From: a virus
Strand: one strand, 5' to 3'
Length of the DNA stretch: 39,209 nt
Virus record (IMG/VR): IMGVR_UViG_3300027987_000156
Location: 1-39,209 of that record
The translations under genes and the position numbers were made by a program. Positions 1,871-38,900 of this stretch are shown here, in pieces (position 1 is the stretch's first letter; each line of letters starts with the position of its first letter). The notes under the pieces were generated by a model. That model searched no databases. It saw nothing but the letters and a program-made list of their open reading frames with translations, and was not told the origin of the DNA.

Positions 1871-3136
1871 TCAGAGGCTGGCTAGAGTGTTGCGGATGTT
1901 CCGGCCTGGGGCTCGGCAGCCTAGATTGCCTCGGTGCTTGACTTCGATCTTCCACGTGTCGCCGCTGCCACGGCGGATGGTCAGACCATCATCATCGATC
2001 GTGTGGACAAGGCGATCACCGGAGTACCCGATGATCCAGCTCGAACGTGTGAGGCCCAGCCCCTCATTGATCCCGCAGCCGCCATCGCTGACGCATGGGA
2101 CTACGCCTTGCTCGCCAGTGAATGCGAGCGCCTGGAATGACACCATGGCTCGCCCGGCGCGACCAGTCATCATCATGCGACGATTACCCTGGTCAGCCCC
2201 AATCGAGTTAGAAATGTTCGCCCACCTTACCGGGTTGACGACATAGGTGTCTATCATTGCATCGTACAGATTCGCATAGCCCAACGACTCAACGATTCCT
2301 TCTTCGACGGGCTTACCGCTGATGTCCAGCCGGATGCCGCTAAGACGCAACACGTCCGCAGTGCGATCGACGCCGTGATGACTGTCGCCAGCGGATGGGT
2401 CGGTGTCTGGAATCCAGCCACGCATGCCCGTCCACTTGGCTCGGAAGTCTCCATCGGCAAACAGGTAATTCGTTGCCGCAAGACCGCTGATGCTAACGGT
2501 GACATCGCTGGCGAACTCCAAGAACCCCTGCATCCTGTCGATGCCAGTGATCGTGACCGTGTTGCCGCTATCGAGAACCACATGGCTGCTGCTGCTGCCA
2601 TCATTGGCCGAAGATTGCAGGACCATGCCCTCCTCGAAAAACTTCGAGTCTGTCACGTTGGTGAGCACGATGCGCGTATTTGCGCCCGCATTACCCGTTG
2701 TGATCGAGCTGATTCTTCCGCGATAACCGCCAACATGCCCGAACATGCCATGCTGTAGATCCTTGCGCATGTTCGCGATTGCACCTTCCATCTCGGTGTC
2801 AATGGCTTCGGCGATCGCGTTTTCATTGCCACTCGTATCGTCGACGGTATTACCTTCGATCTTGGCGATGTGGTAGTTGGAGACGTATTCAACGTCGAAT
2901 CTGACCATCTGGCTTGATGCCGCATTTTGGTCAGCTTTGGTATAGTTGGCCGAGCGCCCCTGCGTGCCTACACGCATATAGGGCAGGCTCATGTAACGGC
3001 CGCCTAGCTGCCTGTCGCTCGTCTCCAGCATTGCTAGCAGTGGGGCGTTTGCGACGACGGCCTGCATGATCGAGTCAGGCTCGATCCAACGCTCCTTCAT
3101 ATATGCAACGATCGCCGCTCTGTTGAGTGCTCCCAT
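1871..3136 (-). CDS. Major capsid protein
   Basis: A 421-residue protein following the scaffold gene. The N-terminal helix-like stretch (MKERWIEPDSIMQAVVANAP) and central LQHGMFGHVGGYRGRI segment precede a beta-rich insertion at roughly residues 140-225. The C-terminal half carries the SLGYANLYDAMIDTYVVNP stretch and ends with basic NLGCRAPGRNIRNTLASL. Length, composition and position immediately after scaffold match HK97-fold capsid proteins of podoviruses. It would assemble the icosahedral shell. No protease is encoded nearby, which suits a podovirus with a separate scaffold. Fold assignment is by context rather than by a diagnostic motif. Confidence 0.75.
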   Translation of the reverse strand: MGALNRAAIVAYMKERWIEPDSIMQAVVANAPLLAMLETSDRQLGGRYMSLPYMRVGTQGRSANYTKADQNAASSQMVRFDVEYVSNYHIAKIEGNTVDDTSGNENAIAEAIDTEMEGAIANMRKDLQHGMFGHVGGYRGRISSITTGNAGANTRIVLTNVTDSKFFEEGMVLQSSANDGSSSSHVVLDSGNTVTITGIDRMQGFLEFASDVTVSISGLAATNYLFADGDFRAKWTGMRGWIPDTDPSAGDSHHGVDRTADVLRLSGIRLDISGKPVEEGIVESLGYANLYDAMIDTYVVNPVRWANISNSIGADQGNRRMMMTGRAGRAMVSFQALAFTGEQGVVPCVSDGGCGINEGLGLTRSSWIIGYSGDRLVHTIDDDGLTIRRGSGDTWKIEVKHRGNLGCRAPGRNIRNTLASL

Positions 3137-3150
3137 GATTCAATCCCCGA

Positions 3151-4143
3151 TCATCTACCGCCAGATGACGCTCTCCTGAGCGCTTCGATCCCGCGGGAAC
3201 GCAGCTCTTGGGCAGCCAGCTTCGTCTTGTCGACGCCGTCGCCCCGATCGCTTGCGAGTTCTTGTGACAGAGCACGTGGACCACCCGCATGCTCATTGTT
3301 ACCCGTTGTCACTGTGGGCTTGCTCGTTGTTGCAGTTGTTGCAGATCCACTTTCGCTCGTTAGCCCAAGGTGCTTATTCAGCAACTCTTTGCCGGCTGGC
3401 GTTGCCGCCAGCGCAGCGAGCTGCTTATCCACCTGGGCTATGAATCTGCTTTCTACTTCACGCGCGACTTCCCTTGCTTCAGGGGCCTCGCCCGCGGATT
3501 CCTTTTCTCTCCACAGCGCCACCATGTGGTTCTCCCCGCCGAGCGCTGATGCTATGGGCGTATCTCCTGAGGAGAGGAACTGACGCGCTGCTGCCAAGTC
3601 CGCAGCATTCATCTCAGCCTGACGCTGGCGCTGCTCATACTCTCGCCTTTGCTGCGCTTCGCTCTTGAGTTCGTCTAGTTCTTCAAGCTTCTTGCGTAGT
3701 TCAGGGGATAGCTTCTTCGCGTCAATATACTCGTCAGGGTCAACCTTGTGGCCTGCCTGCCGAAGCACATGGTCTGTCCACTCTTCGTACGTCAGGCCTA
3801 GCTCTTGTGCCAGTTCGAATTTCTTTTCCGGATCCTTCAGCGCGTCGAAACGGGCGAGACGTTGTGCGAGCTGCTCGCGATCCTTTCGCTCCTTCGCGAG
3901 CTGCTGTTCGACCTGCCTATAGCTCGCGGCAAGCCGTGCAAAACTCTGCCCGTCATCTCCGCTGCTCTCTGGCGCAGTGCTCTCGGCTGGCGCAGTAGCA
4001 TCTCCGCCGGAGGCGCGCGCAAGGGCATCCGCTCGTAGCTGTTCAGCGGTAGGTGTCTGCTGCACGGATGCTTCGCTGCCAGATGTCGCTTCTCCGGCAT
4101 CTCCGCCCTGTGCCTGTGTCTGTGTCTGTGCTTGCTGATCCAT
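3151..4143 (-). CDS. Capsid scaffolding protein
   Basis: A 330-residue hydrophilic protein between portal and capsid. Residues 1-75 are low-complexity and rich in Gln, Ala, Ser and Thr. Residues about 76-190 form a charged coiled coil (YRQVEQQLAKERKDREQLAQ and later REYEQRQRQAEMNAADLAA). The C-terminus is basic (RSRGIEALRRASSGGR), as in scaffolds that contact the capsid through a basic helix. It would guide procapsid assembly and then leave. Its first ~30 codons are duplicated in the mini-gene at 4153-4356, and its start is preceded by the same GCATAGAC sequence as that gene. Confidence 0.8.
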   Translation of the reverse strand: MDQQAQTQTQAQGGDAGEATSGSEASVQQTPTAEQLRADALARASGGDATAPAESTAPESSGDDGQSFARLAASYRQVEQQLAKERKDREQLAQRLARFDALKDPEKKFELAQELGLTYEEWTDHVLRQAGHKVDPDEYIDAKKLSPELRKKLEELDELKSEAQQRREYEQRQRQAEMNAADLAAARQFLSSGDTPIASALGGENHMVALWREKESAGEAPEAREVAREVESRFIAQVDKQLAALAATPAGKELLNKHLGLTSESGSATTATTSKPTVTTGNNEHAGGPRALSQELASDRGDGVDKTKLAAQELRSRGIEALRRASSGGR

Positions 4144-4152
4144 CGTCTATGC

Positions 4153-4356
4153 CTAGTGCTTGACCTTTACTCGCTTCATCTCACCGCGCTTCACCATCTC
4201 TCGCATTTCATCGATGATGATGCGTGCAATGTCCGTGAAGAATTGATCAAACGCTTCCGCTGTAGGTGTCTGCTGCACGGATGCTTCGCTGCCAGGTGTC
4301 GCTTCTCCAGCATCTCCGCCATGTGCCTGTGTCTGCTGATTCATTGTCTCTGTCAT
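4153..4356 (-). CDS. Chimeric mini-gene: scaffold N-terminus fused to portal fragment
   Basis: A 67-residue open frame between portal and scaffold. Residues about 5-34 nearly copy the scaffold N-terminus (GGDAGEATPGSEASVQQTPT). Residues about 35-67 copy portal residues about 416-450 (RIIIDEMREM is identical). Both its start and the scaffold start are preceded by TAG GCATAGAC(A/G) ATG, so the gene junction has been duplicated as well. The portal-derived part differs from its source at many codons while keeping the frame, arguing against an assembly artefact. It may encode a small helical protein able to bind portal or scaffold partners, or may be a decaying duplication. Confidence 0.6.
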   Translation of the reverse strand: MTETMNQQTQAHGGDAGEATPGSEASVQQTPTAEAFDQFFTDIARIIIDEMREMVKRGEMKRVKVKH

Positions 4357-4365
4357 TGTCTATGC

Positions 4366-6270
4366 CTATGCTGCGGCTACCGGCGCCGCAGGCACTTGCT
4401 CGGCAGCTACAGGCGCTGTGCCTGCCGCTGCAGGTGTGGGAGCTGCGCCGGCCGCAGCTTGCTCGGGCGATGTTTGAACCGGCTGCTGTGCCTGCTCAAA
4501 CAAAGATCTTAGGTCGTCAAGATAGAGATACAGTAGCTCAATCTTCTCTGGATCTAGCCTGCGCAGGCGAAACTTGTTGACAGAGAATGTACATAGCTTG
4601 ATCGCCAACTCGATGTCATCCGTAGGCTCGGGAGGGAAGTATTCGCCCTCTTCAATGATTCTCTCTATCGTGTCTAGGATGATGTCATGCGCTGACAGAT
4701 CAAGGCTCTTGAATCGCTCAAGATCTGGGAAATCAAGCAACGCCTTTGCTTCGTCGATCGAGATAAAGCCAGCAGCATACCAGTCCTCCACCGTCTGCGT
4801 TCGTCCAGCTGTCGAATCTGGGAGGGAGCTTGCTGGAGTTAGATCTAACTCGTATTGGTCATCATCGAGCGCGACTTCTTTCCAGTCGATTAGCTCGATC
4901 TTCGTGCGCGCGCCTTTGCGGTGACTGACCTTTACTGGCTTCAACTCGCCGCGCTCTGCCATCTCTCGCATTTCATCAATGATGATGCGGCCAAGATCTA
5001 GGAAGAATTGCTCGAACGCTTGTGTCTTCGTTATCCAGCGCTTACTGCCCGTGTCCTCTATCTCTCTGATAGCTGCTCCACTCTCCACGCCTCTTGGGAC
5101 TTGCCCTGTGGCGCGGAGTTGGTTTAGTCCGATTTGGGCATAGCCGTCTTCTATGATTTCACGCCGATAGGAAAACCATTCCGTAGGAACGCCGTTGGCT
5201 GTGAGTTGCATAGGTGGCGTGCCGCCAGATGGCACGCGATAGACAGTGGCTGGGTCATTATTTATGTGGTGGACACTGACCTTTGGGCCGTCGCGGGGGC
5301 CGTCGAACACTACGAAGTTACTTCGGCTGTTGAAATGAATTGCATCTGCGATCTTTAGGTGCAGATAGTTCAGCGCTCTCTGGTGGCCTCGCAGTTCTTC
5401 CACGATCCCCTGGCCGTAGAATCCTACCTGGCGAGTCTCCCATCGTAGGAATGCAATGGGGAAGCGCGACCGTTTGTATTCGCGTTTCTCCAGCAGCTTG
5501 CCTGGCACAGCTACCGCGTACTTGCCAGGCTTGTCTTCGCATCCGAGCCGCCATGACTGCACTAGCGCGACTTGGTCAAGCGTCTGATCGTGGTCAGCCC
5601 ATTTGAAGAGTTGCCTAAGCCTACCCTCCCACCCGCTACCGCTCGACATTGGTATCTCGGAGCCGTAATACTCTTGCAGGACTTGCCGGTCCATCATACG
5701 CACTCGATAGATGGTGCGCGGCTTGCCGTAGTATCCCTCACGCACGTCTACGAGGATTTCTCCGGGGAAGCATCGCTCTAGTTTGACGCGTCCCTCTTCA
5801 GAGAACACCACCACTGCCCCAAGAGAGCTAACGCCGCTGTCAATGAACGCTTGACGCCCCAGCTCGTATGCCCCGTTTTGAGCAAACACTCCCTTCACGA
5901 CTTGTTCACACGACTGCGCTTTCCGCGTGAGTCCCCAGTCCGCATCATCGGTCTGGAACTTGACCTTTGGCCGCTTGCTCGCGATATGTGCTGCTGCGGT
6001 ATTCACGACGCTGCCGCACAGATTGAATTTTAGCTTGGCCAGCGCTCGTCGCTTGAGTGACTCACTTGCGTCAAGTGGGATGTCAGACGTACCCACCAGG
6101 TCCTGCGCACCATACATCTCCATGAACAGCGCATCATCTGCACGACGGCGTCTGTTCTGACCTTCGATCTTGGTCACATCATCGAAGATAGACTCTGCAA
6201 TGTCGTCGCCGTCGACGGTCCACCAGCGCGGCCGCTCGTTACGCAATGTGCTGGGTAGTGAGTAGCTCAA
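4366..6270 (-). CDS. Portal protein
   Basis: A 634-residue protein located between large terminase and scaffold, with the length expected of a podovirus portal. Such proteins form the dodecameric ring for DNA entry and docking of the tail. Visible stretches include an N-terminal part with ALFMEMYGAQDLVG, a wing-like central domain, the LNYLHLKIADAIHFNSRSNF helix, and GLNQLRATGQVPRGVESGAA, which resembles the stem/channel region of podovirus portals. The C-terminus is an Ala/Pro/Gln-rich tail (AAAGAAPTPAAAGTAPVAA). Fragments of residues about 416-450 and 488-516 are duplicated in neighbouring mini-genes. Confidence 0.85.
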   Translation of the reverse strand: MSYSLPSTLRNERPRWWTVDGDDIAESIFDDVTKIEGQNRRRRADDALFMEMYGAQDLVGTSDIPLDASESLKRRALAKLKFNLCGSVVNTAAAHIASKRPKVKFQTDDADWGLTRKAQSCEQVVKGVFAQNGAYELGRQAFIDSGVSSLGAVVVFSEEGRVKLERCFPGEILVDVREGYYGKPRTIYRVRMMDRQVLQEYYGSEIPMSSGSGWEGRLRQLFKWADHDQTLDQVALVQSWRLGCEDKPGKYAVAVPGKLLEKREYKRSRFPIAFLRWETRQVGFYGQGIVEELRGHQRALNYLHLKIADAIHFNSRSNFVVFDGPRDGPKVSVHHINNDPATVYRVPSGGTPPMQLTANGVPTEWFSYRREIIEDGYAQIGLNQLRATGQVPRGVESGAAIREIEDTGSKRWITKTQAFEQFFLDLGRIIIDEMREMAERGELKPVKVSHRKGARTKIELIDWKEVALDDDQYELDLTPASSLPDSTAGRTQTVEDWYAAGFISIDEAKALLDFPDLERFKSLDLSAHDIILDTIERIIEEGEYFPPEPTDDIELAIKLCTFSVNKFRLRRLDPEKIELLYLYLDDLRSLFEQAQQPVQTSPEQAAAGAAPTPAAAGTAPVAAEQVPAAPVAAA

Positions 6271-6770
6271 AGGTGTGCGAGATCCAGCTCGTCACCATTT
6301 CGCTCGCTCTCGTCGTCGCTGTCAGGCGATGGCGGAAGATCGGTGAGTAGGGCGTCGGGCCCAAAGGCGCCATATAGCTCGGGCATGTCCTCTGGCCGTA
6401 TCAGGGTGGCGGCACGTGTCGACGATGTCAAGGGCGGTGGTGATGCGGCGTCCAGCTGTACAGCCTCGACTGGCGTCTGCTGCAGTTCGATCATCACGCA
6501 CGCATCCTGCCCGCAAGGCAGCGATACGCGGGTCACACCGTACCTTTGCAGTTGCTCCATGTTTGAAAGTAACTCCTTGAAAATACGTAAAGAATCGTCG
6601 GTAAGATCCATCTGTCCTCTACATGTCTGGAGCATCGTTGTATCGCGGCTGTGATAGCTCCCATTCACCGCGGTCCTCAGCTCTGGGAAATCAAGCAACG
6701 CCATGGCTTCGTCGATCGAGATAAAGCCAGCAGCATACCAGTCCTCTATCTTCTGCGTTCGGTCAGCCAT
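6267..6770 (-). CDS. Chimeric protein: portal fragment and terminase-tail duplication ahead of a small protein
   Basis: From the ATG at 6768-6770, preceded by AGAGGACAG, the frame encodes 167 residues. Residues 1-30 copy portal residues about 488-516 (WYAAGFISIDEA). The next stretch is a copy of the terminase 3' end read in another frame. The remainder, from MDLTDDSLRIFKELL, is a 114-residue protein with its own ATG at 6609-6611 and an identical AGAGGACAG leader. The ancestral gene is therefore probably 6267-6611, and the rest an in-frame insertion. The 114-residue part has a helical start and an acidic C-terminus (SPDSDDESERNGDELD). Its function is unknown. Confidence 0.6.
   Translation of the reverse strand: MADRTQKIEDWYAAGFISIDEAMALLDFPELRTAVNGSYHSRDTTMLQTCRGQMDLTDDSLRIFKELLSNMEQLQRYGVTRVSLPCGQDACVMIELQQTPVEAVQLDAASPPPLTSSTRAATLIRPEDMPELYGAFGPDALLTDLPPSPDSDDESERNGDELDLAHL
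6614..6677. repeat. Duplicate of the terminase 3' end and junction
   Basis: This segment repeats 6775-6838, which covers the last codons and stop of the large terminase and the following AGAGGACAG leader. Only about three bases differ over the compared span. Between the two copies lies a ~85-base copy of an internal portal segment (source about 4722-4806). Together they form a composite tandem duplication at this gene junction. Confidence 0.85.
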
Positions 6771-6777
6771 CTGTCCT

Positions 6778-8244
6778 CTACATGTCTGGAGCATCGTTGT
6801 ATCTCGGCTGTGGTGGCTCCCATTCACCGCGGTCCTCCTGCACGTGTCGCGGGACGGTAGGTGCAGGCGGACGGGCTTCAGGGTTATCGTAGGCTGGGCA
6901 CTCACGATACGCATACAGCCCCGCATCAGCCGTATCATCGTCCTGGCCCTCTGCGATGTCCTTTCGTTCTTCGTCCCACACCAGCGTAGCCCATTGCTGT
7001 TGCAGACTGTCGTCACCCTCTAGTGGCAGCTGCTGGCCATTATCGAGCTTGACCACGATAGGCTCAAATGCAGTCAACAATCGCAGCCTCCCAGTGTGTA
7101 GAGCGTCGCTAGTCATCTCGAGTGCTCCGCGCTTATCTGCCTTCTTTGCTGGTCGTATCGGGATGTCTGGCCAGCGCTTCAGGAACTCGACGGCATACGC
7201 CTTGCCCAGCCCTCCGACGTCACCCACTACAGAATCTGGATCGAAGTGGTCAATCAATGCCTTCATCCAATAGGCAAAATCGCTAGGCACCAGTCCATGC
7301 TTCTTCCCAGCGTGCACCACATAAGCATCGCTACCCCATCTCTCCGGATAAGCAATCACGGCCCATGCACACGCATCGCCATACCCGAAATCGAATGCAA
7401 TCGTGTGTGCCCATTTGTCCCCAATCGACAGCTCTGGCAAGGCAGACGCAAGGTTGCGATTTGGAGCATACTGAAAGACTCGGCGTGCGCTGTCGACGAT
7501 CCATTGAGCAAGGTACTCACGTCGCCAAATCGGATTGCTGTCATCCCATTTTCTGCGCGCGAAAAGTCGCTTCTTGAAAGCCTCAAAGTCAACGTGCGGA
7601 TTGTCTTTGGCTGTCCACCCATGCCTAGACCATCCAGGTAATCTGCCCGTGCACGCTTCATAGAAATACCCGTACGCCTGCGGAGTAGGCGTGCCCATAA
7701 GCCAGACGTCGCCGCCGCGATCCATCGTGGTTGCTTCGAGAACTTCGTCTATGAGGTACTTGAGGTAACTCGGACGCTGTGCTCCGCACTCATCTATTCG
7801 AATCTTGTCGAGTGCCCATCCGCGCATCTTTTCGAGTTCGCGAATGTCATCCATGCCTCGGACGTACAGTTCGCTGCCATTTGGCGCGCGCGCGATAGCT
7901 TCGCTCTCGTTGAGCTTGAGTCGCCAGTCGTAACGGTCATTGAGCTCTCTAAGTGGCCTCCAAAAGATTGCTTTTGCGCTTGGCCTGGAGACGCCAACAT
8001 ACAGGCCGGTTGAGCCTGCATCACTGTGCATGCCAGCGACGAAATCTGATAGCGCACAGATTGTCTTGCCGCTACGACGCCCGCACAGCAGCGTCTTGAA
8101 TGGCTCTGGATCGCTGATGACTGCGCGCTGGCACTCGAATAGATTGTCTAATGGATTGGATGTGATGCGAGCGGCCGAGCGGCGCCTCGCCTTTTCGGCG
8201 AGGGCCGATGCCAACATGCGCCGTATCGCGTCATGGCCTCCCAC
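6778..8244 (-). CDS. terL: Terminase large subunit
   Basis: The 488-residue ATPase/nuclease motor that packages DNA into the procapsid. The Walker A motif is CGRRSGKT (residues 54-61), Walker B is IRIDE (148-152) and the coupling motif is LMGTPT (182-187). The RNase H-like nuclease domain shows acidic residues in AFDFGYGD (283-290), VVGDVGG (339-345) and DDDTADAG (435-442). Length is typical. The C-terminus is proline-rich and may contact the portal. Residues about 193-248 are duplicated in the mini-gene at 8752-8958, and the last codons are duplicated at 6614-6677. Confidence 0.95.
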   Translation of the reverse strand: MGGHDAIRRMLASALAEKARRRSAARITSNPLDNLFECQRAVISDPEPFKTLLCGRRSGKTICALSDFVAGMHSDAGSTGLYVGVSRPSAKAIFWRPLRELNDRYDWRLKLNESEAIARAPNGSELYVRGMDDIRELEKMRGWALDKIRIDECGAQRPSYLKYLIDEVLEATTMDRGGDVWLMGTPTPQAYGYFYEACTGRLPGWSRHGWTAKDNPHVDFEAFKKRLFARRKWDDSNPIWRREYLAQWIVDSARRVFQYAPNRNLASALPELSIGDKWAHTIAFDFGYGDACAWAVIAYPERWGSDAYVVHAGKKHGLVPSDFAYWMKALIDHFDPDSVVGDVGGLGKAYAVEFLKRWPDIPIRPAKKADKRGALEMTSDALHTGRLRLLTAFEPIVVKLDNGQQLPLEGDDSLQQQWATLVWDEERKDIAEGQDDDTADAGLYAYRECPAYDNPEARPPAPTVPRHVQEDRGEWEPPQPRYNDAPDM

Positions 8245-8266: not shown

Positions 8267-8752
8267 TCACTGATTTTTGTACTTGGGCTTCTTGGACTTC
8301 TTTTGGCTATCGACCCACGGTTTGTGGTCATCGCCCTTGGAGTACCGATTGCTCTCTGGATTGCGCGCGCTTGACTCTGGTTCGCTATGCGCCTGGACGC
8401 TGGCTGGTTCCTTCGGCACTTCCGGTGAATCTGACACCGGGTCATGCGGCGCCGCAGACACAGAAAACGTGTGGCCCTTGCAATCGTCGCGACTTTCGAG
8501 GACCGCAATAAGCCGCTCTTCTCCGACGACGACCAAGTCACGCAACGTGCGTATGACCAGTCCATGGTATTCGTGGTCTGGGACCAAGCCCACCAAGATA
8601 CGAGCAAACTCCGCCGCGCGCTCTCGCATACGACAGCTAGGTGTCTCCAGAAGTTGGGCTCGGCGCTTCGCCCCAGGCGGGTCTGGCGCTACTTGCCTGG
8701 GCGCGAACGTTTCCCTGATACGTATGTTTGTTGGAACCGTTGTATTGGCCAT
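8267..8752 (-). CDS. Uncharacterised protein upstream of large terminase, 161 aa
   Basis: A 161-residue protein of unknown function. The N-terminal half contains a probable helical region (RMRERAAEFARILVGLVPDH) and LVIRTLRDLVVVGEERLIAV. The C-terminal 60 residues are hydrophilic and disordered-looking, ending in a lysine-rich tail (DSQKKSKKPKYKNQ). It starts with a TAATG overlap with the preceding mini-gene. The basic tail suggests nucleic-acid binding, possibly a packaging accessory, but that is inference from composition and location. Its first ~15 codons are duplicated at the start of the mini-gene at 8752-8958. Confidence 0.6.
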   Translation of the reverse strand: MANTTVPTNIRIRETFAPRQVAPDPPGAKRRAQLLETPSCRMRERAAEFARILVGLVPDHEYHGLVIRTLRDLVVVGEERLIAVLESRDDCKGHTFSVSAAPHDPVSDSPEVPKEPASVQAHSEPESSARNPESNRYSKGDDHKPWVDSQKKSKKPKYKNQ

Positions 8753-8958
8753 TATTCGCTAGCCTTCTCAAGATACTTACGCTGCCAGATAGGATTGCTG
8801 TCGTCCGACTTTTTGCGCGCAGAAAGTCGCTTCTTGAACACGTCAAAATCGACGTGTGGTTTGCTTTTTGCTGCCCATTCATGCCTGGGCAATCCAGCTT
8901 CGTAAAAATACCCGCACGGCACGTGAGTTGACCTGATGCGTATGGATGTACTGGCCAT
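8752..8958 (-). CDS. Chimeric mini-gene: 5' end of the next gene fused to terminase fragment
   Basis: A 68-residue frame. The first ~15 codons resemble the start of the following 161-residue gene (TSIRIR against TNIRIR), including the GCGAATAATGGCCA junction. Residues about 15-62 copy large-terminase residues about 193-245: PHVDFDVFKKRLSARKKSDD here, PHVDFEAFKKRLFARRKWDD in the terminase. The nucleotide copies are clearly diverged but remain in frame. It overlaps both flanking genes by stop/start sharing, so it is probably translated. The source segment lies between the terminase ATPase and nuclease domains, so a dominant-negative or regulatory peptide is conceivable. Confidence 0.6.
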   Translation of the reverse strand: MASTSIRIRSTHVPCGYFYEAGLPRHEWAAKSKPHVDFDVFKKRLSARKKSDDSNPIWQRKYLEKASE

Positions 8959-9215
8959 TATTCGCCAACTTCCTTCGTCTCATAGTCGATAGCTCGAATG
9001 TTCACCGCAGGAACATAGCGCGAATACACTCCAGCGTCTTTGCCGCGCGAATCCAGCGGATATAGCCGGATGCCAGGACCAAATACTGGATGCTCCACCT
9101 CTTCGACTCCCTCTACACTGTTCGGCGCTGCTACTATTCGACTTCCCTCCACCACTCCGAGCTTAGGTTGGTGTTCCCGGAATATCACTCGTAAAATTCG
9201 CTTCTTCGTGCTCAC
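8958..9215 (-). CDS. Uncharacterised basic protein, 85 aa
   Basis: An 85-residue protein starting with a basic segment (MSTKKRILRVIFREHQPKLG), then predicted beta strands, and a C-terminus with YVPAVNIRAIDYETKEVGE. An AGGAGGATC-type ribosome-binding site precedes the ATG. No cysteine cluster, membrane segment or known motif was found. The stop overlaps the start of the terminase-fragment mini-gene as TAATG. Its location in the packaging gene block suggests a phage-specific accessory role only. Confidence 0.65.
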   Translation of the reverse strand: MSTKKRILRVIFREHQPKLGVVEGSRIVAAPNSVEGVEEVEHPVFGPGIRLYPLDSRGKDAGVYSRYVPAVNIRAIDYETKEVGE

Positions 9216-11245: not shown

Positions 11246-11621
11246 TGCGGTACCTGCTTGCCCCGAGCCCGCGAACGCCCAGGGCGATCCGCTTTCCACT
11301 GTGGTCCGTGTTGGCGGCGTCGACTTCCTGAAACTGCAGCTCAACAGGTAGCGAGGTTTGGTCTCCGATCAGCTTGGAGAATGCGATGCATGTGATTTCC
11401 CAGCGCGCGCTCAGCCACGGCGCCGATGGGTCGAGTTCTCCGAACATGCCCCGCCACTCCTTGCCGGATAACAGAACCCGGACGTCGACATCGCGATAGT
11501 CGGCACGGGTGATGCACGAGCCGACTAGGTACACGCCCTCCTCAAACGCTTGGTCGAGCGGAGCGCATGCGATGTCGAGCGCGATCAGCTGTGGGCGGTT
11601 CAGGTAGGTGATTCGGCTCAT
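11238..11621 (-). CDS. Minimal nucleotidyltransferase-like protein
   Basis: The protein is about 127 residues from MSRITYL (GGAG six bases upstream); a start four codons earlier at 11633 is possible. Motif LVGSCITRADYRDVDVRVLL matches the Pol beta-like nucleotidyltransferase signature, with GS, then a D-x-D pair that binds metal. A third acidic residue may be in VELQFQEVD. Phage members could modify tRNA, antibiotics or proteins, or act in toxin-antitoxin-like MNT modules; no HEPN partner is adjacent. The family call is fairly secure, the substrate unknown. Confidence 0.65.
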   Translation of the reverse strand: MSRITYLNRPQLIALDIACAPLDQAFEEGVYLVGSCITRADYRDVDVRVLLSGKEWRGMFGELDPSAPWLSARWEITCIAFSKLIGDQTSLPVELQFQEVDAANTDHSGKRIALGVRGLGASRYRNV

Positions 11622-11630
11622 GGCTCGCTC

Positions 11631-11658
11631 CATTTCCGAGGCTCCGCCAGGTTGAGAC
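11631..11658. repeat. Duplicate of a neighbouring gene's 3' end
   Basis: This segment nearly repeats 11984-12011, the 3' end of the zinc-ribbon gene (coding LAEPRK and stop on the minus strand), with one or two differences. Here it creates a 14-codon frame (MSLNLAEPRKWSEP) whose stop overlaps the nucleotidyltransferase start as ATGA. It is another example of a gene end copied to a nearby junction. Confidence 0.75.
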
Positions 11659-11667
11659 TCATGGGCT

Positions 11668-11970
11668 CTAGTCTCTTTCCAATTTATCGGCGAATGCCAG
11701 CTCGCGCTTCAACCACTTCGGCCCCCGCGGGTCCGGAGCCCTGCCGTTGGTCTCGTCACGTCTGGTCGCAGCTTGATAGATCGCGTGTGCCCGGGCGCGC
11801 CACCATGGGGCCCATGTATGGTCTACATACGGCCCACGCAGCTTCACTGTACGGTACACCTCCCGCTGTTTGTCGGAATCCACGGTTGCCCAGCATGTCG
11901 CGCACATCAGGTGTGCGGGCGGGCAAGGAGAGCTGCAGCCGAGTGCATGGCAGTAGTGATTCATCTTCAT
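11668..11970 (-). CDS. Small zinc-binding phage protein
   Basis: The protein begins MKMNHYCHALGC, with GAGGA five bases upstream of the ATG at 11968-11970; the ATG two codons later is possible. Cysteines in CHALGCSSPCPP and MCATCW could bind zinc, followed by a helix typical of a recurring phage family of about 100 residues whose start reads MNHYCHAxGC and which has an aromatic-containing middle (WAPWWRARAHAIYQAA). Its role is unknown; such proteins sit in early or DNA-metabolism clusters. Confidence 0.65.
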   Translation of the reverse strand: MKMNHYCHALGCSSPCPPAHLMCATCWATVDSDKQREVYRTVKLRGPYVDHTWAPWWRARAHAIYQAATRRDETNGRAPDPRGPKWLKRELAFADKLERD

Positions 11971-11982
11971 GCTCTTCCTCAC

Positions 11983-12318
11983 TCATTTCCGAGGCTCCGC
12001 CAGGTGGAGACGCAGCTCCGCCTGGTGGAGCTGCGTCTCCACGTCATCGAGGCCGCTGCGCGCGGTGGCATGAAGCCAGTCCCCGAAAGTCACGCTAGAG
12101 CCGTCAAGCGTCATCTCGATAATCGAGATGAGAGCGTCGAGCTGGGAGGCCGTCAGACGAAGCGTAACCGGCCTCGGCAGGTCGACGATACGCCCTGTTG
12201 CCTCGCACCGCCCCACAGCGCCGTTGTGACGATGCAGACGCCCGTTGCGGCGTACAGCGACACGCCGCCCGCACACGGGACACCGAGTCGATTCGGGCGT
12301 GTTGCGGTGCTCATTCAT
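11983..12318 (-). CDS. Zinc-ribbon protein, 111 aa
   Basis: The N-terminal region holds CPVCGRRVAVRRNGRLHRH and a later Cys (GRCEAT), suggesting a zinc-binding ribbon with C-x-x-C and H/C ligands. The C-terminal half is helical (PVTLRLTASQLDALISIIEM) with a heptad-like end (VETQLHQAELRLHLAEPRK). Its first codons (MNEHRNTPE) are nearly the same as those of the next gene upstream (MSEHSNTPE). A perfect 16-bp inverted repeat lies within its 3' end. It may be a DNA-binding or regulatory protein. Confidence 0.6.
   Translation of the reverse strand: MNEHRNTPESTRCPVCGRRVAVRRNGRLHRHNGAVGRCEATGRIVDLPRPVTLRLTASQLDALISIIEMTLDGSSVTFGDWLHATARSGLDDVETQLHQAELRLHLAEPRK
12004..12042. repeat. Perfect 16-bp hairpin in the zinc-ribbon gene
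   Basis: Arms 12004-12019 and 12027-12042 are exact reverse complements around the 7-base loop GCCTGGT. There is no T-run after either arm. Stem length and loop size resemble the hairpin at 1378-1418. Confidence 0.85.
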
Positions 12319-12321
12319 GGA

Positions 12322-12942
12322 TCATCCTCCATGCCTTGCCTGCTTGGCGAGCCCCACGAGCCACAAAGCAAACGCCGGCGGGGTCCGCCGACGCTGTTGC
12401 GCGCTGCAGACCTTGATCCCGGAAGGTACCGCGCACCCGGTGCGCTTGTAGTTCGCGGGGTATTGTCTGCCGCCGCCGGTGCGGAACCCCGCGCACCAGT
12501 GCGTTGGCTCACGGGGCGGTGGCAGCTCCCCGACGTCATGCACGCCAACCAGATAGAGCCACGTTCGCTTGCGCGCGACGTGCCCCCAATCGACTTGACA
12601 CACTTCGATCGTGTAGCCGCCCCAAGTGTCCGGCAGGTCGCCCGGCCGGGGAAGTCCGCAGTTCTGAAAAAGCTTCGAATGAGCCGGGTGCTCGAGCACA
12701 CCACCCCACGCCCTTACTTGCTCCACAGCCCGCAGCGCGCACTCTGGATCCTGTTGCTTGGCTAGATGCCTCATACGCCCCCATGGACCGCATGGCGGAT
12801 GTGCCACCACGGGGTGGGGGCCGGTGTAGCGCTTGGCATCGCGGGTGACGTCCCAGCAGTCTACCTCGGATAGCGCGGGGTAGGGGCCGCGCGGATCGAT
12901 GTATAGCGCCGCCACCTCGGGCGTGTTGCTGTGCTCACTCAT
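12322..12942 (-). CDS. DNA methyltransferase-like protein (phage PPC family)
   Basis: A 206-residue protein with AALYIDPRGPYP, then VVAHPPCGPWGRMRHL (residues 45-60), whose PPC resembles the catalytic Pro-Cys loop of C5 cytosine methyltransferases. It also has GGVLEHPAHSKLF and a C-terminal RRRTPPAFALWLVGLA, as at the end of Dcm-like enzymes. It lacks a full-length N-terminal SAM domain, so it may be a divergent or inactive enzyme; a role in protecting phage DNA from restriction is inferred. Its start overlaps the upstream stop by four bases. Confidence 0.6.
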   Translation of the reverse strand: MSEHSNTPEVAALYIDPRGPYPALSEVDCWDVTRDAKRYTGPHPVVAHPPCGPWGRMRHLAKQQDPECALRAVEQVRAWGGVLEHPAHSKLFQNCGLPRPGDLPDTWGGYTIEVCQVDWGHVARKRTWLYLVGVHDVGELPPPREPTHWCAGFRTGGGRQYPANYKRTGCAVPSGIKVCSAQQRRRTPPAFALWLVGLAKQARHGG

Positions 12943-13538
12943 GGCTCATTCTCCCTTTCCAGGTTATCCAAAATCTCCAGGCCGTCTGCCATCCCCACTG
13001 CGACGTCCAGCAGCTCGATGTCGAGCTGACGCAGCACTTTCCCGACCGTCCACCCTTCAGGCGCTCCAGGCGCCTGTACGCCTCCCAGAGCCTCTGAGAC
13101 CGTGAGGCGCCACCCTGGGCGCCTCAGCTTGCGTTCTGCCCACACAGAGGCGTCTGGGGCCCAGCAACGGCCCTCTTCGCACGCCCTGGCCAGCACGCGT
13201 AGCTCCTGGCCGTCGAATGCTGGGGTCTGCACTTCGACGCAGCGGGCGCACACCTCACCCGACGTACTCATCACCACCGGCCGACCCCCCAACGATACCA
13301 ACATCGTAGTGGGCTCAGGTAGGTCACGTAACCACCTCATCGGATACGTAAGCAATTGTGCCGAATACTGTTGCAAAATAGCAACAGGGACGGGTTGGAC
13401 GGGTTCCAGCAAGAGTCCCTCCTGTGCGCGCGCGCGCACGTCCGCGTCGCGCGTGTTACGCGCGTATATGCGCGCAGGAGACACTCTTGCGACAACCCGT
13501 CCAACCCGTCCCTCCTTTTTGGAACCATTCGTTATCAT
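12939..13538 (-). CDS. Uncharacterised protein upstream of the methyltransferase
   Basis: About 199 residues from the ATG at 13536-13538, preceded by GGAGA seven bases upstream; a shorter form from the ATG at 13340 would leave the large inverted repeat non-coding. The middle includes VCARCVEVQTPAF and ACEEGRCWAP, a possible zinc site. The C-terminal ~70 residues (PEGWTVGKVLRQLDIELLDV) look helical and acidic. The N-terminal basic part is encoded by the inverted-repeat DNA and may be untranslated. The function is unknown. Confidence 0.55.
   Translation of the reverse strand: MITNGSKKEGRVGRVVARVSPARIYARNTRDADVRARAQEGLLLEPVQPVPVAILQQYSAQLLTYPMRWLRDLPEPTTMLVSLGGRPVVMSTSGEVCARCVEVQTPAFDGQELRVLARACEEGRCWAPDASVWAERKLRRPGWRLTVSEALGGVQAPGAPEGWTVGKVLRQLDIELLDVAVGMADGLEILDNLERENEP
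13386..13513. repeat. Large imperfect inverted repeat, possible replication origin
   Basis: Positions 13386-13405 and 13494-13513 are perfect 20-base reverse complements. Pairing continues inwards with interruptions, including a shared AGCAAGAG/CTCTTGC part and CTCCTG/CAGGAG, toward a GC-alternating centre. The outer arms also contain direct 9-base repeats of GACGGGTT(G/C). The element lies close to the primase and helicase genes, as expected of an origin or primosome-loading site. A transcription control role is also possible. Confidence 0.6.
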
Positions 13539-16809: not shown

Positions 16810-17451
16810 ATGACTACAGAGACCCACCCAGTTGTCGAAATGATCCTCGACATCATTGCGGAGCGTGAGCAGTGCCCCACCCTGCAGGTATTCACCGAGC
16901 TCGCCAGTGAGCTGTGTGGCGAGCTGGCGCGTGACTGGCCTGACGCGGTAGCTGAGTACGCCGCGGCGCTCGACGCCTGTCACATGTGCGGCGGCGCTGG
17001 CGCCGTCGAAGCCGCGAAGAATCCGAGGTACGCGTGCAATGGAGGCACGGCAGAGTGCCCCGTGTGCTGGTCCAGCGGAGACGCCAGCGAGCCCTGCACC
17101 CCTCCCACGCTGGACGCAGTGCAGACGGCCCCGCTGACTCCCACCGCATTCTGCCCCTCGCAGAGCGAGCAGGACGCGATGGAGACCATGCGCGGCACGG
17201 TGCCCATGATGACTGCTGCGCAGTCAGACGTGCTGGACGCCTACCAGCAGCTGTGCTCGACCCCCCCCGTCGAGCTCACCGCGCGCGCGAAGGCATTCGC
17301 GAGCGAGTGCATCTGCGAGCACCGCTTTCTCGTCGACGGCGACGATGTCCGCGTGTGGGACGATGTGGCCGGGCACTACACGACGTGCCATGCCCTGGGC
17401 GCATCTGCCGTGCGGCGCATCCGCCGCATTGCTGCCGAGGTGGCGTCATGA
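16810..17451 (+). CDS. Cysteine-rich early protein, 213 aa
   Basis: The first gene of the rightward unit. The start at 16810 is chosen because the purine-rich GGGGAGAGCGAGAGAC precedes the ATG. After a helical N-terminal stretch, residues about 57-97 contain a zinc-finger-like cluster (CHMCGGAG, later CPVCW and a further Cys), reminiscent of DnaJ-type C-x-x-C-x-G repeats. The C-terminal half carries the conserved-looking WDDVAGHYTTCHALGAS. It shares ATGA with the first pentapeptide-repeat gene. The function is unknown; a host-takeover or regulatory protein is plausible. Confidence 0.7.
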   Translation: MTTETHPVVEMILDIIAEREQCPTLQVFTELASELCGELARDWPDAVAEYAAALDACHMCGGAGAVEAAKNPRYACNGGTAECPVCWSSGDASEPCTPPTLDAVQTAPLTPTAFCPSQSEQDAMETMRGTVPMMTAAQSDVLDAYQQLCSTPPVELTARAKAFASECICEHRFLVDGDDVRVWDDVAGHYTTCHALGASAVRRIRRIAAEVAS

Positions 17452-18212
17452 GCATCATCCGCATTCAACTCGAGGCGCACGCCGAACGCAATCGCCAAGA
17501 GATGGCGCATGGCCGCACGCGCACGCCATGGTCCGGTGGATGGCTCGCTGGCGCAGACCTCGTGGGCGCCAACCTCGCGCACGTTTGCCTCACTGGCGCC
17601 AACCTCACATGCGCCAATCTCACGGGCGCCGACCTCGTGGGTGCCGATCTGGTGCACTCCAACCTCGTGGGAGCAAAACTCACGGATGCCATCCTCACAC
17701 ACGCCGATCTCGAGGTCGCTAATCTCGCTGATGCCAACCTCTATCGCGTCAACCTAACTGGCGCCAACCTCTATCGCGCAAACCTCACACAAGCCAAACT
17801 CATTGGCGCCGACCTCACACATGCCAACCTCTATCGCGCCGACCTAACTGGCGCCAACCTCACTCACGCCAGCCTCTATCGCGCCAAGCACGCCGACACC
17901 ACGGGCGCAACGTGGCTACGCCGCCCCGACATGCCAGACCCATCCGAGCTACGCGCCCGCGTAGCCGATCACATCGCAGCGCACCCGAAGCTACACGCTC
18001 AGGGTGAGTGGGGCGACGGCAGCGGCGAGCCTGCGTGCCAGACGCCGTGCTGCGTCGCTGGCTGGGCGTGCCACCTGGGCGGTGGCAGCTATGGTCTCGA
18101 AGTGCCTACGGCCGCGACGATCCTGCTGCACGTCGACGGTCAGCCCATGCCGTCATTCGTAGCTGCTGCTACGCGTGATGAGATACTTCGCGCACTCCGA
18201 GGTGAGTCATGA
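17448..18212 (+). CDS. Pentapeptide-repeat protein 1 with C-terminal CCVAGWAC domain
   Basis: A 254-residue protein. Residues 1-31 form a shared N-terminal cap (QLEAHAERNRQEM then RTPWSGG). About 22 pentapeptides of type A(D/N)LxG follow, predicted to fold as a right-handed four-sided beta helix. The C-terminal ~95 residues are a domain shared with three of the paralogues, with PACQTPCCVAGWACHLGGG and ending LRGES. Pentapeptide proteins such as MfpA and Qnr mimic DNA and bind gyrase, a possible but unproven role here. It shares ATGA with both neighbours. Confidence 0.9.
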   Translation: MSIIRIQLEAHAERNRQEMAHGRTRTPWSGGWLAGADLVGANLAHVCLTGANLTCANLTGADLVGADLVHSNLVGAKLTDAILTHADLEVANLADANLYRVNLTGANLYRANLTQAKLIGADLTHANLYRADLTGANLTHASLYRAKHADTTGATWLRRPDMPDPSELRARVADHIAAHPKLHAQGEWGDGSGEPACQTPCCVAGWACHLGGGSYGLEVPTAATILLHVDGQPMPSFVAAATRDEILRALRGES

Positions 18213-18901
18213 ACATCCGAGAACAACTCGAGGCGCACGCCGAACGCAATCGCCAAGAGGTGGCGAGCGGCCGCGCGCGTACGCCATGGTCCGGGGGATC
18301 GCTTGCTGGCGCTAAGCTCGCGGGAGCCGATCTCGAAGGCGCCAACCTCGCGTACACCGATCTCGAAGGCGCCGATCTTGAAGACGCCGACCTCACCGAC
18401 GCCGAGCTCTATCGCGTCGACCTAACGAACGCCTATCTCAGTGAGGCCAATATCACTGAGGCCAATCTCACTGAGGCCAACCTCACTAACGCCGATCTCA
18501 CTAACGCCTACCTCACGGGCACCGACTTCTTTGGCGCCGATCTTACCGGCGCCGCTCTCGAAGGCGTCGACCTCACAGACGCCGATATCACGGGCGCCAC
18601 GGGTCTACGCCGCCCCGGCATGCCAGACCCATCTGAGCTACGACGACGCGTAGCCGATCACATCGCCATGCATCCGGAGCTACACGCTCAGGAGGAGTGG
18701 GGCGACGGCAGCGCCGAGCCTGCGTGCCAGACGCCGTGCTGCGTCGCTGGCTGGGCGTGCCATCTTGGCGGTGGCACCTACGGTCTCGAAGTGCCTACGG
18801 CTGCGACGATCCTGTTGCATGTCGACGGTCAGCCTATGCCGTCTTTCGACACCGTCGCTACGCGTGATGAGATACTTCGCGCACTCCGAGGTGAGTCATG
18901 A
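18209..18901 (+). CDS. Pentapeptide-repeat protein 2 with C-terminal CCVAGWAC domain
   Basis: A 230-residue paralogue with about 19 pentapeptides. Its repeats are notably acidic (ADLEGANLAYTDLEGADLED), which would give a negatively charged helix surface as in DNA-mimic pentapeptide proteins. Cap and C-terminal domain match protein 1 (CCVAGWACHLGGGTYGLEV). The GAGGTGAG at the end of gene 1, read there as LRGES codons, supplies the ribosome-binding site. Confidence 0.9.
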   Translation: MNIREQLEAHAERNRQEVASGRARTPWSGGSLAGAKLAGADLEGANLAYTDLEGADLEDADLTDAELYRVDLTNAYLSEANITEANLTEANLTNADLTNAYLTGTDFFGADLTGAALEGVDLTDADITGATGLRRPGMPDPSELRRRVADHIAMHPELHAQEEWGDGSAEPACQTPCCVAGWACHLGGGTYGLEVPTAATILLHVDGQPMPSFDTVATRDEILRALRGES

Positions 18902-19590
18902 ACATCCGCAAGCAACTCGAGGCGCACGCCGAACGCAACCGACAAGAGATGGAGAGTGGGCGCGCGCGCACGCCATGGTCCGGGGGATCGCTCGCTGACG
19001 CCAAGCTCGCGGGCGCCAACCTCGAATGCGCCTACCTCATGGGCGCAAAACTCATGGGCGCCAACCTCTCTCGCGCCGACCTCACACGCGCCGACCTCAC
19101 ACGCGCCGATCTCACTTGCGCCAAACTCACGCTCGCCAACCTCACACGCGCCAACCTCTATCGCGCCAACCTCACATACGCCAACCTCGAATGCGCCGAC
19201 ATCATGGGCGCCAGTCTCGCGTATGCCGACCTCACCGGCGCCGATCTCACTGACGCCTATCTCACAGACGCCAACATCACTCGCGCCATGGGTCTACGCC
19301 GCCCAGGCATGCCAGACCCATCTAAGCTACGTAGACGCGTAGCCGATCACATCGAGGCGCATCCAGAGCTACACGATCAAGGCAAGTGGGGCGACGGCAG
19401 TGCCGAGCCTGCATGCCAGACTCCATGCTGCGTCGCTGGATGGGCGTGCCATCTGGGCGGTGGCAGCTATGGTCTCGAAGTGCCTACGGCCGCAAAGATC
19501 CTGCTGCACGTCGACGGTCAGCCCATGCCGTCATTCGACTCCGACACTAAGCGTGAGGAAATCCTCGCGGCACTCCGAGGTGAGTCATGA
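18898..19590 (+). CDS. Pentapeptide-repeat protein 3 with C-terminal CCVAGWAC domain
   Basis: A 230-residue paralogue with about 19 pentapeptides, richer in Arg and Met at outward positions (ANLSRADLTRADLTRADLTC) than protein 2. The different surface charge suggests a different partner. The C-terminal domain is again complete, with SELR replaced by SKLR and CCVAGWACHLGGG retained. It overlaps the flanking genes by ATGA. Confidence 0.9.
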   Translation: MNIRKQLEAHAERNRQEMESGRARTPWSGGSLADAKLAGANLECAYLMGAKLMGANLSRADLTRADLTRADLTCAKLTLANLTRANLYRANLTYANLECADIMGASLAYADLTGADLTDAYLTDANITRAMGLRRPGMPDPSKLRRRVADHIEAHPELHDQGKWGDGSAEPACQTPCCVAGWACHLGGGSYGLEVPTAAKILLHVDGQPMPSFDSDTKREEILAALRGES

Positions 19591-20531
19591 ACATCCGCAA
19601 GCAACTCGAGGCGCATGCCAAACGCAACCGCATCCGAGAACAACTCGAGGCGCACGCCGCTCGCAACCGCCAAGAGATGCGGGGGATACGGCGCGCGCGC
19701 ACGCCATGGTCCGGTGGCTCGCTTGTTGACGCCGAACTCGCGGGCGCCTACCTCGAGGGCGTCAACCTCGCGGGCGCCGATCTCACGGGCACCGACTTCT
19801 CGGATTCTTCGCTCTCTCTCGCCAACCTCTCTCATGTCTACCTAACGGGCGCCAACCTCGCTGGCGCCACCCTCACTGACGCCAATCTCACTCGCGTCAA
19901 TCTCTATTGCGCCGGTCTCACTGGCGCCGATCTCACTGGCGCCAAGCTTTATCGCGCCAGGCTCTGTCGCGCCAGGCTCTGTCGCGCCAACCTCACTGAC
20001 ACCGATCTCACGGGCGCCGAGCTCACAAACGCTAACCTCACATGCGCAAAACTCACAGGCGCCAATCTCGCTGACGCCTACCTTGCTGGCGCCGATCTCA
20101 CTGCCGCCAACCTCGCGGGCTCCAACCTCTATCGTGCCAAGCTCATGAACGCCAACCTCACTGGCGCCGATCTCACTGGCGCCGACATCGAAGGCGCAGA
20201 TCTCACTGGCGCCATCCTTATGGGCGCCACGGGTCTACGCCGCCCCGACATGCCAGACCCATCCGAGCTACGCGCCCGCGTAGCCGACCACATCGAGGCG
20301 CATCCGGAGCTGCACGATCAGGAGAAGTGGGGCGACGGCAGAGCCGACCCTGCATGCCAGTCTTCGTGCTGCGTCGCTGGATGGGCATGCCACCTTGGCG
20401 GTGGCACCTACGGTCTCGAAGTGCCTACGGCTGCGACTATCCTGCTGCATGTCGACGGTCAGCCCATGCCGTCATTCGAAGCCTACGCTACGCGTGAGGA
20501 GATACTCGCAGCGCTCCGAGGCGAGTCATGA
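19587..20531 (+). CDS. Pentapeptide-repeat protein 4, longest paralogue
   Basis: A 314-residue paralogue with about 33 pentapeptides. The cap has been duplicated (IRKQLEAHAKRN followed by IREQLEAHAARN), and the repeats include unusual pentads with Cys and Arg (AKLYRARLCRARLCR). The C-terminal domain is present but one of its cysteine-flanking residues differs (ACQSSCCVAGWAC). The extra repeats suggest expansion by unequal recombination between 15-bp units. It shares ATGA with genes 3 and 5. Confidence 0.9.
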   Translation: MNIRKQLEAHAKRNRIREQLEAHAARNRQEMRGIRRARTPWSGGSLVDAELAGAYLEGVNLAGADLTGTDFSDSSLSLANLSHVYLTGANLAGATLTDANLTRVNLYCAGLTGADLTGAKLYRARLCRARLCRANLTDTDLTGAELTNANLTCAKLTGANLADAYLAGADLTAANLAGSNLYRAKLMNANLTGADLTGADIEGADLTGAILMGATGLRRPDMPDPSELRARVADHIEAHPELHDQEKWGDGRADPACQSSCCVAGWACHLGGGTYGLEVPTAATILLHVDGQPMPSFEAYATREEILAALRGES

Positions 20532-21070
20532 ACATCCGAGAACAACTCGAGGCGCACGCCAAGCGCAACCGCCAAGAAGTGGCGAGTAGGCGCGCGCGCA
20601 CGCCATGGTCCGGGGGATCGCTTGCTGGCACCAAGCTCGCGGGCGCCAATCTCGAATGCGCCAACCTCTATCGCGCCGAGCTCGGAGGCGCCGAGCTCGG
20701 AGGCGCCGACCTCATTGGCGCCAACCTCACATACGCCAACCTCACGCGCGCCGACCTCATTGGCGCCAACCTCTATCACGCCAACCTCACTGGTGCCAAC
20801 CTCACGGGCGCCAACCTCACGGGCGCCAACCTCACGCGCGCCGATCTCGAGGACGCCAAGCTCACGGGTGCCAACCTCACACGCGCCAAGCTCATTGGCG
20901 CCAACCTCTATTACGCCAATCTCACGGGTGCCAACCTCACACGCACCGACCTAATGGGCGCCAGTCTCGCGTATGCCGCTCTCACCGGCGCAGACATCAC
21001 TGACGCCGACCTTACTGACGTCTATCTCGATGGCGCAAACCTCGATGAAGCCGTGGTGAAGAATGACTAA
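20528..21070 (+). CDS. Pentapeptide-repeat protein 5, without the C-terminal domain
   Basis: A 180-residue paralogue with the common cap and about 28 pentapeptides, among the most regular (ANLTGANLTGANLTGANLT). It ends after the last pentads at DEAVVKND and lacks the CCVAGWAC domain, so it is close in size and layout to stand-alone pentapeptide proteins of the MfpA/Qnr size class. Its stop overlaps the next gene. Loss of the C-terminal domain may be by recombination at the end of the array. Confidence 0.9.
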   Translation: MNIREQLEAHAKRNRQEVASRRARTPWSGGSLAGTKLAGANLECANLYRAELGGAELGGADLIGANLTYANLTRADLIGANLYHANLTGANLTGANLTGANLTRADLEDAKLTGANLTRAKLIGANLYYANLTGANLTRTDLMGASLAYAALTGADITDADLTDVYLDGANLDEAVVKND

Positions 21071-35989: not shown

Positions 35990-38900
35990 TTAGCTTGCCC
36001 TCACTAGATCACGCTTGTACGTTGCGCCGCCCGCCTCGACTTCCACGCGCGCGGACAGAAGCTCGCTAAAGCCAGTTACCTCAAGAGAGAATGCGCGCAT
36101 CTTTCGGCTAGTGAGCGGGAACTCGATCTGCTGGTCGCTGCTGTTATCCCCCCAAGTCGAAAATGTTTGCGCCGCAGAATCCGAGTGGTCGGCGTAGACT
36201 TTCAGCGTCGCGCTGGTCGGGAACTTGCCAAGCAAGTACACATTGCGAACATTGAGCTCGCTCTGTGGGCTCCCTGTGGTCAACCATCCAGTACGCCATT
36301 GCGCAGCCCCTGGGACAGATGCAAGCCCAGGGTCACTCGTCGCCCCTGAGACTTGCTTCCAGACTGACGCGTTTGCGTCAGCGATTACATGAGCACCATC
36401 CCAGAACGCGGCAGCTACAGGATCTGTCGAGCCATTGAGCTGATAGCTATGCCATAGCTGCTTTTCGAGCTCATAGGCAATCACCAATGCATCAGGTGAT
36501 GTACCAGTGGTCCATCGGACTTCGTTCGCGCTGTCTACATAGACTGCGCTGGTGAAGTCATAACTATCATACGTTGCGATGTCTCGGCCAATCCTCGTGA
36601 GCTGCAGTCCTGGGTCGAGCAGATAGATGCCATTTCGCGGCGAGGCGAACATGAAACCAAGTGGGGTCTTGACCAGGCTCTTGATTTTGCCCAGCCCAAT
36701 TCCGCGCTGCGGAATCAATACTGGCTCACGAAGGGTTCCTGGGTTGCCGACATCATCGCCAGCGGTGCCTACCATTACTCCGATCGCATCGTCCCACCAT
36801 ACGATCAGCCGCTCGTCCATCGTGCTGATCCACTTCGGCAGCCTTGTATGGATATCGGTCTTGACTGACAACCCAAGGTGAAAGCCTGGCCACTCACCGT
36901 CGACAATTTGCTTGCTGGGCCATACGCGCCCAGTCTCGCTGTCGAGGCACACGATTCTGTTGCGCCATATTGCGATGGATTTGGTGGGTGGCGGCGCGTA
37001 GTTAGGTAGCTCTCCACCTCCTGCATCCGTCTGCGTCAGTACCTCTTCATCCGTAATCGTCGCGTCGCTTGTCGTGTCTGTATACGTGATGGTCGTGGGC
37101 TCTACTACGTCGAGCCGATAGAGAATGATGTCAGACGGGTCTCCTTCGCTACGCCATATTACCAGCCGCCAGTTGTTCGACGAATAGCCGGGCTGAACTG
37201 GCCCTCCAGATGCCCATAACGTGCTAGACGTAGACATCCAAGATAGGTCGATGTCGACTTCATTTTGGCCCGCTGCTAGCGTATGAGCGACGACTGTGGA
37301 TGGCCTACCGCGATGCAGTCGACCTAGCCGATCTACATATTCGTAACTGAATGCGTAGTAATAGGTTGCCGCGGTGTCCAATGACCCACCGGCTCCGGCG
37401 TCTGTAATCAGCGAAGCTTCGATCGGTGGGTCAATGAGTGGCATGGTGCCGATTAGGCCATCATTGATCATGATGCCCTTGTTGGCGATCTTCGGGATGC
37501 TCGCTGCAATCATAAGCACGCCATCGAACTCAATGGCGTTGTGCGTCTCGTCTGTGTCGAAGCTTAGCTCGAGCAAGTCATTGCGTAAGTACGTGACGAA
37601 ACCGTCCTTGCCTTCGAGGACGACTCCTATCCAGTAGGCGCTAGTGCCCACTAGCGCGTATCCGCTAACATGGCTTGAGATCGAGCTCGTTAGCTGGATG
37701 AATTGCGCGACGGGTGTCATGACACCACCGTCTTGATATGCCTGCGACAAGCAGTAGGCAAATTGCGTTGTGCCCTGTGTGCCAGGCAGCTCGGCTGCAA
37801 CAAGCACGTAGACCCTGCCGTCCCATGCACTCCTGCTAGTGACGAGCGCTCTGCCCACGACCCATACGCCGCTGATAGATGGTGTATAGGATACGTTGAT
37901 CAAAGCGCCGGAATCTAGATTCAGATACCCGACATGCATGTAGTCCGTGTATGACGACCCTGGGGTGTCAGGGCCATAAATGACTACTGCTCTATTTGCG
38001 GAGTTATCGCTGTAAGCGATCACTGTAGATCGGCCAGCAGTGATTGAGCTCTCTACCGTGAATAGCGAAGTGAGCGCTGTCGCCACAGCAGAGTACGAGC
38101 GCGCCACTTGCGAGTTTGTCCCAGCATCGCTCCATGTCGCTACTATGATGGCAGCAGCGTTATTAATGTCGATGCTCAACGCGCTAACTGCGCCTGTTGG
38201 CGTCGTCGCTGTCCCGTTTGTAAGCGACGGTGTTGCCCCGCTTAGCGTAATGTAGCCGACCTGTACATCGCCAGATGAATCGACGTAAGCAACGGCAATG
38301 ACGCCAGTCCCGGAGTGAACGTCTACAGCGGCGTCGAATGTCTGTGCCGCGAGCGACGTCGCCAATGATGTCCCAGCGCTCCACCCTGCATCGATGTCTG
38401 TGATGTCGAGTGTCGCAGCATATAGCGTGGTGCCATCGATGTAGACAGCTACCAAATAATCGGTAGATGAATACTGCATTAGCCGCAGATAGCTCGTGGT
38501 AATGCTTAGCTCAATGTGGCGAATATCATATGTTTCTGCATCAATGATGTGGATTGCGGTGTTGCGCAAGTGGACGGCGAAGTACCCGTTGCTGTGGTAA
38601 GCTACGTCCGTTGCGTACGTAGTACCTCTGCCAGCATTGCGGATCTTGTGTGCTCGGCTGATCGGTAGCGCTGTCTTCGCGACTTCAAGCCACCGAGACT
38701 CGGCTGCGGACCAGCGCCACAAAGATTTGCCTGACTCCGTGTATAGCTTGTCTCCTGCTACCATGAGCCCCTTTTCCGGGATCATCGTCGCAGTATCGTC
38801 TACCGCTCCACTATCGTATAGGGTTGCGTTCGTCGATAGCCCACTATGTCCATCGCGCGCTTTTAGCCCACCGTCTTCGGCGAATGAAACGTTGGCAAGC

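Follow-up and report, generated by a model that had tools for sequence, protein, structure and literature searches.

The window analysed here is the whole of a 39,209-nucleotide IMG/VR virus record (IMGVR_UViG_3300027987_000156), in which an operon of head genes lies on the minus strand. In the direction of transcription, this operon includes the gene for the terminase large subunit (terL, 6778..8244; phrog_2, 1.4e-36), a small gene (6267-6611), the portal gene with a TTG start (4366..6270; phrog_156/332; PF12236, 1e-10; portal folds with Z up to 27), the scaffold gene (3151..4143), and the gene for the major capsid protein (MCP, 1871..3136; phrog_14242, 1.7e-6). No family match was obtained for the 3151..4143 product, and its identity as scaffold was assigned from the position of the gene between portal and MCP. 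Over 344 bases, the two ends of the record (1-344 and 38866-39209) repeat each other at only 97% identity, and their junction is spanned by a sister contig (IMGVR_UViG_3300027985_001226; 17,453 bases); the record represents a genome that is circularly closed or permuted and whose join varies between strains. The sister contig, the only near-identical one found in IMG/VR, is 99.95% identical overall to the window, with zero differences across about 2.3-11.7 kb.

Between portal and scaffold, an initial annotation had placed a 67-residue open reading frame (ORF) that it read as a hybrid of the two genes. The ORF was found on the minus strand at 4153..4356 with an ATG start, and the hybrid reading was borne out by self-comparison of the window, each half being in the frame of its parent gene. 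A copy of the scaffold start (4255..4372), including the stop and spacer TAGGCATAGAC and the start codon, matches the true scaffold start with its own spacer (4042..4160) at 84% over 120 bp (E 5e-25; 93.8% over 81 gap-free bases). It is fused to a copy of an internal portal fragment, codons 418-450 (4156..4256), that matches 4921-5021, also on the minus strand, at 82% over 101 bp (E 3e-20); these E-values reject chance similarity. The scaffold-derived stretch comprises about the first 33 residues of the ORF (hereafter hybrid 1), rather than the roughly 30 first proposed, and because its first residues (MTETMNQQTQAHGG) are unlike the MDQQAQTQTQTQAQGG-like start of the scaffold, it is a diverged copy. 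Changes have turned the portal half strongly basic (pI 9.5 versus 5.1). The order portal, hybrid 1, scaffold that had been described is correct for the transcribed strand, and the duplicated spacer that had been taken as a trace of origin was recovered within a longer repeat of stop, spacer, and start: TAG, GCATAGAC, one base, and ATG precede both hybrid 1 and the scaffold gene.

The same self-comparison revealed two more chimeras within 5 kb of hybrid 1. Hybrid 2 contains a copy (6679..6767, minus strand; 91%) of portal positions 4721-4809, and it lies between two copies of a stretch comprising the terL end and the next gene's ribosome site and start codon. The first of these copies is the true terL end (6759..6837, minus strand), which is 92.6% identical to the second (6598..6678, minus strand), where the ribosome site and ATG are those of the small gene 6267-6611; the copied start codon is at 6770, and reading continues from it in frame through the portal fragment into this downstream gene. 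Hybrid 3 is a 68-residue ORF (8752..8958, minus strand) whose opening copies the start of the next gene (8267-8752); a TerL fragment (8769..8897, minus strand; 78% to 7509-7637) follows in frame, and the ORF closes on a copied end of the previous gene (8958-9215). All three partial copies sit at gene junctions of the terL-scaffold operon, and each consists of a fragment of a neighboring gene flanked on the same strand by direct repeats of the target junction. None of the six joins breaks the reading frame, an outcome with a chance of about 1/729 by a test devised post hoc. The identities of fragment and flank were 82/84%, 91/93%, and 78/82% for hybrids 1, 2, and 3, respectively; fragment and flank thus diverge alike within one event, and divergence differs between events. 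The flanking repeats of two of the three inserts contain exact runs of 34-37 bp. A mobile element or target-site duplication was rejected as the source because every insert is a different local gene fragment. An assembly artefact was likewise rejected: the sister contig has the same three inserts, and an error is unlikely given that the hybrid 1 ORF is unchanged there (100% amino acid identity).

Relatives of the virus were gathered by a TerL motif pattern followed by TerL alignment, and 15 of them had portal matches at E 1e-30 or better, with identities of 24-32%. The relatives are distant (portal identity 21-32%). In seven (L025, L027, L028, L029, L032, L041, and L047), portal is directly followed by scaffold with no hybrid ORF, and in some others different genes lie between the two. 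As far as such distant relatives show, the lack of this ORF among them makes hybrid 1 novel to the lineage. Neither the relatives nor other phage loci totaling about 670 kb contained fragment copies of portal or terL. This zero is to be read as a lower bound, since the three-part-pattern scan recovers hybrids 1 and 2 but not hybrid 3, in which the copied flank is short; what the scan matched in L047 and L069 has the look of repeat families. IMG/VR yielded no homologue of hybrid 1 besides the sister contig. The portal relatives found are uncultivated contigs, and a tblastn search with the portal in 50,697 phage records gave no relative at E 1e-5. No match to the MCP was obtained in phages at E 1, in plasmids the portal had a single weak match (E 0.04) covering 25% of the query, and scans of GTDB genomes with TerL and a portal stretch yielded nothing confirmed.

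The threefold recurrence with the frame kept is more informative than hybrid 1 alone, and its simplest reading is repeated duplication and shrinkage. We consider it probable that hybrid 1 is what is left, after shrinkage, of a tandem duplication reaching from within portal to the scaffold start, and that its peptide has no selected function. The duplicated unit would have begun at portal codon ∼417, ended at scaffold codon ∼35, and measured ∼0.77 kb; a template switch or an unequal exchange, in which two related phages perhaps took part, may have produced it. The second copy of portal would then have lost an internal stretch, from codon ∼450 to the portal stop, leaving a remnant that keeps the scaffold start signal and the portal stop and spacer. 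Scaffold-start copies lie on both sides of the portal fragment with strand and order preserved, the joins show short overlaps of 2-4 bases, and the portal source (4921-5021) and the scaffold start are less than 1 kb apart in one contiguous neighboring stretch; judged from the sequence, the observed order of the pieces appears to fit duplication plus internal deletion exactly. At least two further rounds of the same process, separated in time, would have occurred in the lineage, one upstream of terL and the other at its end, so that one duplication of a contiguous 0.8-2 kb unit and one deletion in the redundant copy could account for each of the three cases. Hybrid 1 is predicted to be translated as a small operon insert. 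Frame-breaking products would be purged from an operon that needs to stay translatable; the probable reason for frame retention is that, after a frameshift, translation would stop early and a gap without translation would open ahead of the essential head genes.

A related process is known in T4, in which tandem duplications arise at 2-10 bp homologies and deletions follow (PMC9391042). The T4 cases (tifA; genes 16-18) resemble the present one in combining short-homology tandem duplication with DNA loss in a dsDNA phage but differ in that whole genes were amplified under selection and the deletions were located elsewhere (PMC9391042); here, just ∼90-150 bp fragments are left within the duplicated unit, as in-frame mini-ORFs. 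A literature search for in-frame partial duplications in phages found no report on point. Counting against duplication followed by deletion, the full tandem duplication expected as an intermediate was not seen in any contig, and a single templated insertion would give the same picture. Direct repeats with exact runs of 34-37 bp should be easily lost by recombination, yet both contigs retain all three inserts, which may point to selection. The shortage of nonsynonymous changes in the TerL-derived fragment (see below) also counts against it.

A co-infecting relative may have supplied the second copy, as may the genome itself, both donors being compatible with the pieces as they stand. In the donor variant of the duplication-and-deletion explanation, which overlaps with it, the inserts are scars of unequal crossover between diverged alleles of co-infecting related phages and not products of internal duplication. 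We regard this variant as possible but somewhat unlikely. It would yield high synonymous divergence without great age, above all in the TerL fragment (pS 0.56), and the 3% difference between the record ends indicates that strains mix in the population. However, no donor genome was found, and the loss of N215 and E243 from the TerL fragment, residues that nearly all related TerLs keep, implies much change after capture.

Selection on the fragments was assessed by counting codon differences and by simulations of decay in which omega was 0.1 for the parent; hybrid 2 and the scaffold half of hybrid 1 were too short to be informative. The portal half of hybrid 1 carries 11.2 nonsynonymous and 6.8 synonymous differences, compared to 11.7 nonsynonymous differences expected under neutrality (P 0.50), and its pN/pS of 0.41 is compatible with omega 1 on the fragment branch, albeit with the low power of 33 codons. 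For the TerL fragment of hybrid 3, 14 nonsynonymous differences were counted versus 30 under neutral decay (P 0.005). This deficit, taken together with the changed N215 and E243, can mean either new constraint or the capture of an already diverged allele that then drifted briefly; of the three hybrids, the TerL one alone hints at constraint.

A role for the insert could also lie in translation control, such that a coupled short ORF with a duplicated scaffold start region shifts the ratio of portal to scaffold and the protein is irrelevant. Portal is present in 12 copies and scaffold in hundreds. The TAG-GCATAGAC-N-ATG context is preserved ahead of hybrid 1 as well as scaffold, and junction context and frame are kept in three of three hybrids; the relatives, however, manage without an insert, and we consider this reading improbable.

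The initial annotation had further proposed that a peptide with parts of both proteins could compete in, or tune, procapsid nucleation. Spelled out, the proposal would have a portal-wing-like helix and a scaffold-like N terminus bind a partner and thereby tune portal incorporation. The ORF is open and carries the scaffold's own start region, and an AlphaFold2 model of hybrid 1 (single sequence, mean pLDDT 74) contains one confident helix, residues 33-56, after a disordered first half; the basic charge of the portal half also counts in favor of the proposal. In the portal model (13 sequences, pLDDT 71.5), the parent of the copied fragment is the end of helix 410-440 plus strand 446-452. This model matches the portals of P22, T7, and PaP3, with P22 chain residues 6-522 aligned to model residues 23-481. 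The wing of the P22 portal comprises residues 6-319 and 417-524 (PMC12005531), and on the basis of the structural alignment ranges, which place the piece at the level of domains, the copied portal piece falls within the wing domain, in its second half. It is at the wing that the P22 scaffold binds portal (PMC12005531, PMC13386823).

P22 shares the gene order terL-portal-scaffold-coat, and its procapsid portal (9jga, Z 24.7) has the same fold, but in P22 13 bases separate the portal stop from the scaffold start, with no insert. In P22, moreover, the elements that touch the portal wing belong to the C-terminal half of the scaffold (base, C-loop, and C-terminal hook) and not to its N terminus (PMC12005531), whereas the part copied here is the scaffold N terminus, which is disordered in the model. 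The copied portal piece thus comes from a suitable domain, and the copied scaffold piece, by analogy with P22, does not. Against the proposal stand also the portal half, which fits neutral decay, the absence of the ORF in the seven relatives, and the similar hybrids at two junctions at which scaffold plays no part. Of the initial reading, the hybrid formed via duplication and the spacer as its trace are retained; the nucleation function is unsupported, and we consider it very unlikely. It is harder still to credit that the lineage repeatedly makes and keeps small in-frame chimeras of its own portal and TerL, of which at least one, likeliest the TerL one, acts as a decoy or dominant-negative against defense sensors of portal and TerL or against the packaging of competing phages: the pattern-recognition defense proteins Avs1-4 are described as sensing TerL and portal (PMC12931631), from which the fragments derive, but they read structural patterns of folded proteins, and the fragments are 30-45 residues.

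If hybrid 1 and its two counterparts arose by duplication and deletion, one operon with three events of different age would illustrate a route to new small phage genes, in which the start signal of a neighbor is copied, a piece of another gene follows in frame, and a stop is inherited. If any of the peptides is used, the operon would be an example of ongoing gene birth out of structural genes; if none is used, the case is a caution against inferring function from hybrid ORFs in phage genomes.

Other copied segments were observed elsewhere in the window. At 12293-12330 and 12917-12954, two adjacent genes have near-identical first nine codons (MSEHSNTPE and MNEHRNTPE), so that a gene start has putatively been copied in another genome region as well. 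At 11587-11661 and 11931-12014, the end of a gene together with its junction (ACCTGGCGGAGCCTCGGAAATG) is repeated, with a copy placed directly ahead of where the next gene starts. On the plus strand, four to five pentapeptide-repeat genes form a tandem family at 17000-21070; most of them share a C-terminal domain and the start MNIRxQLEAHAxRNR. Outside this virus, the podovirus Pelagibacter phage HTVC010P (L009) has a 106-base repeat (2339-2439 and 2779-2884; 72%) at the ends of the two small genes between terL and portal, which may be a comparable duplication of a junction at an equivalent place in the operon.
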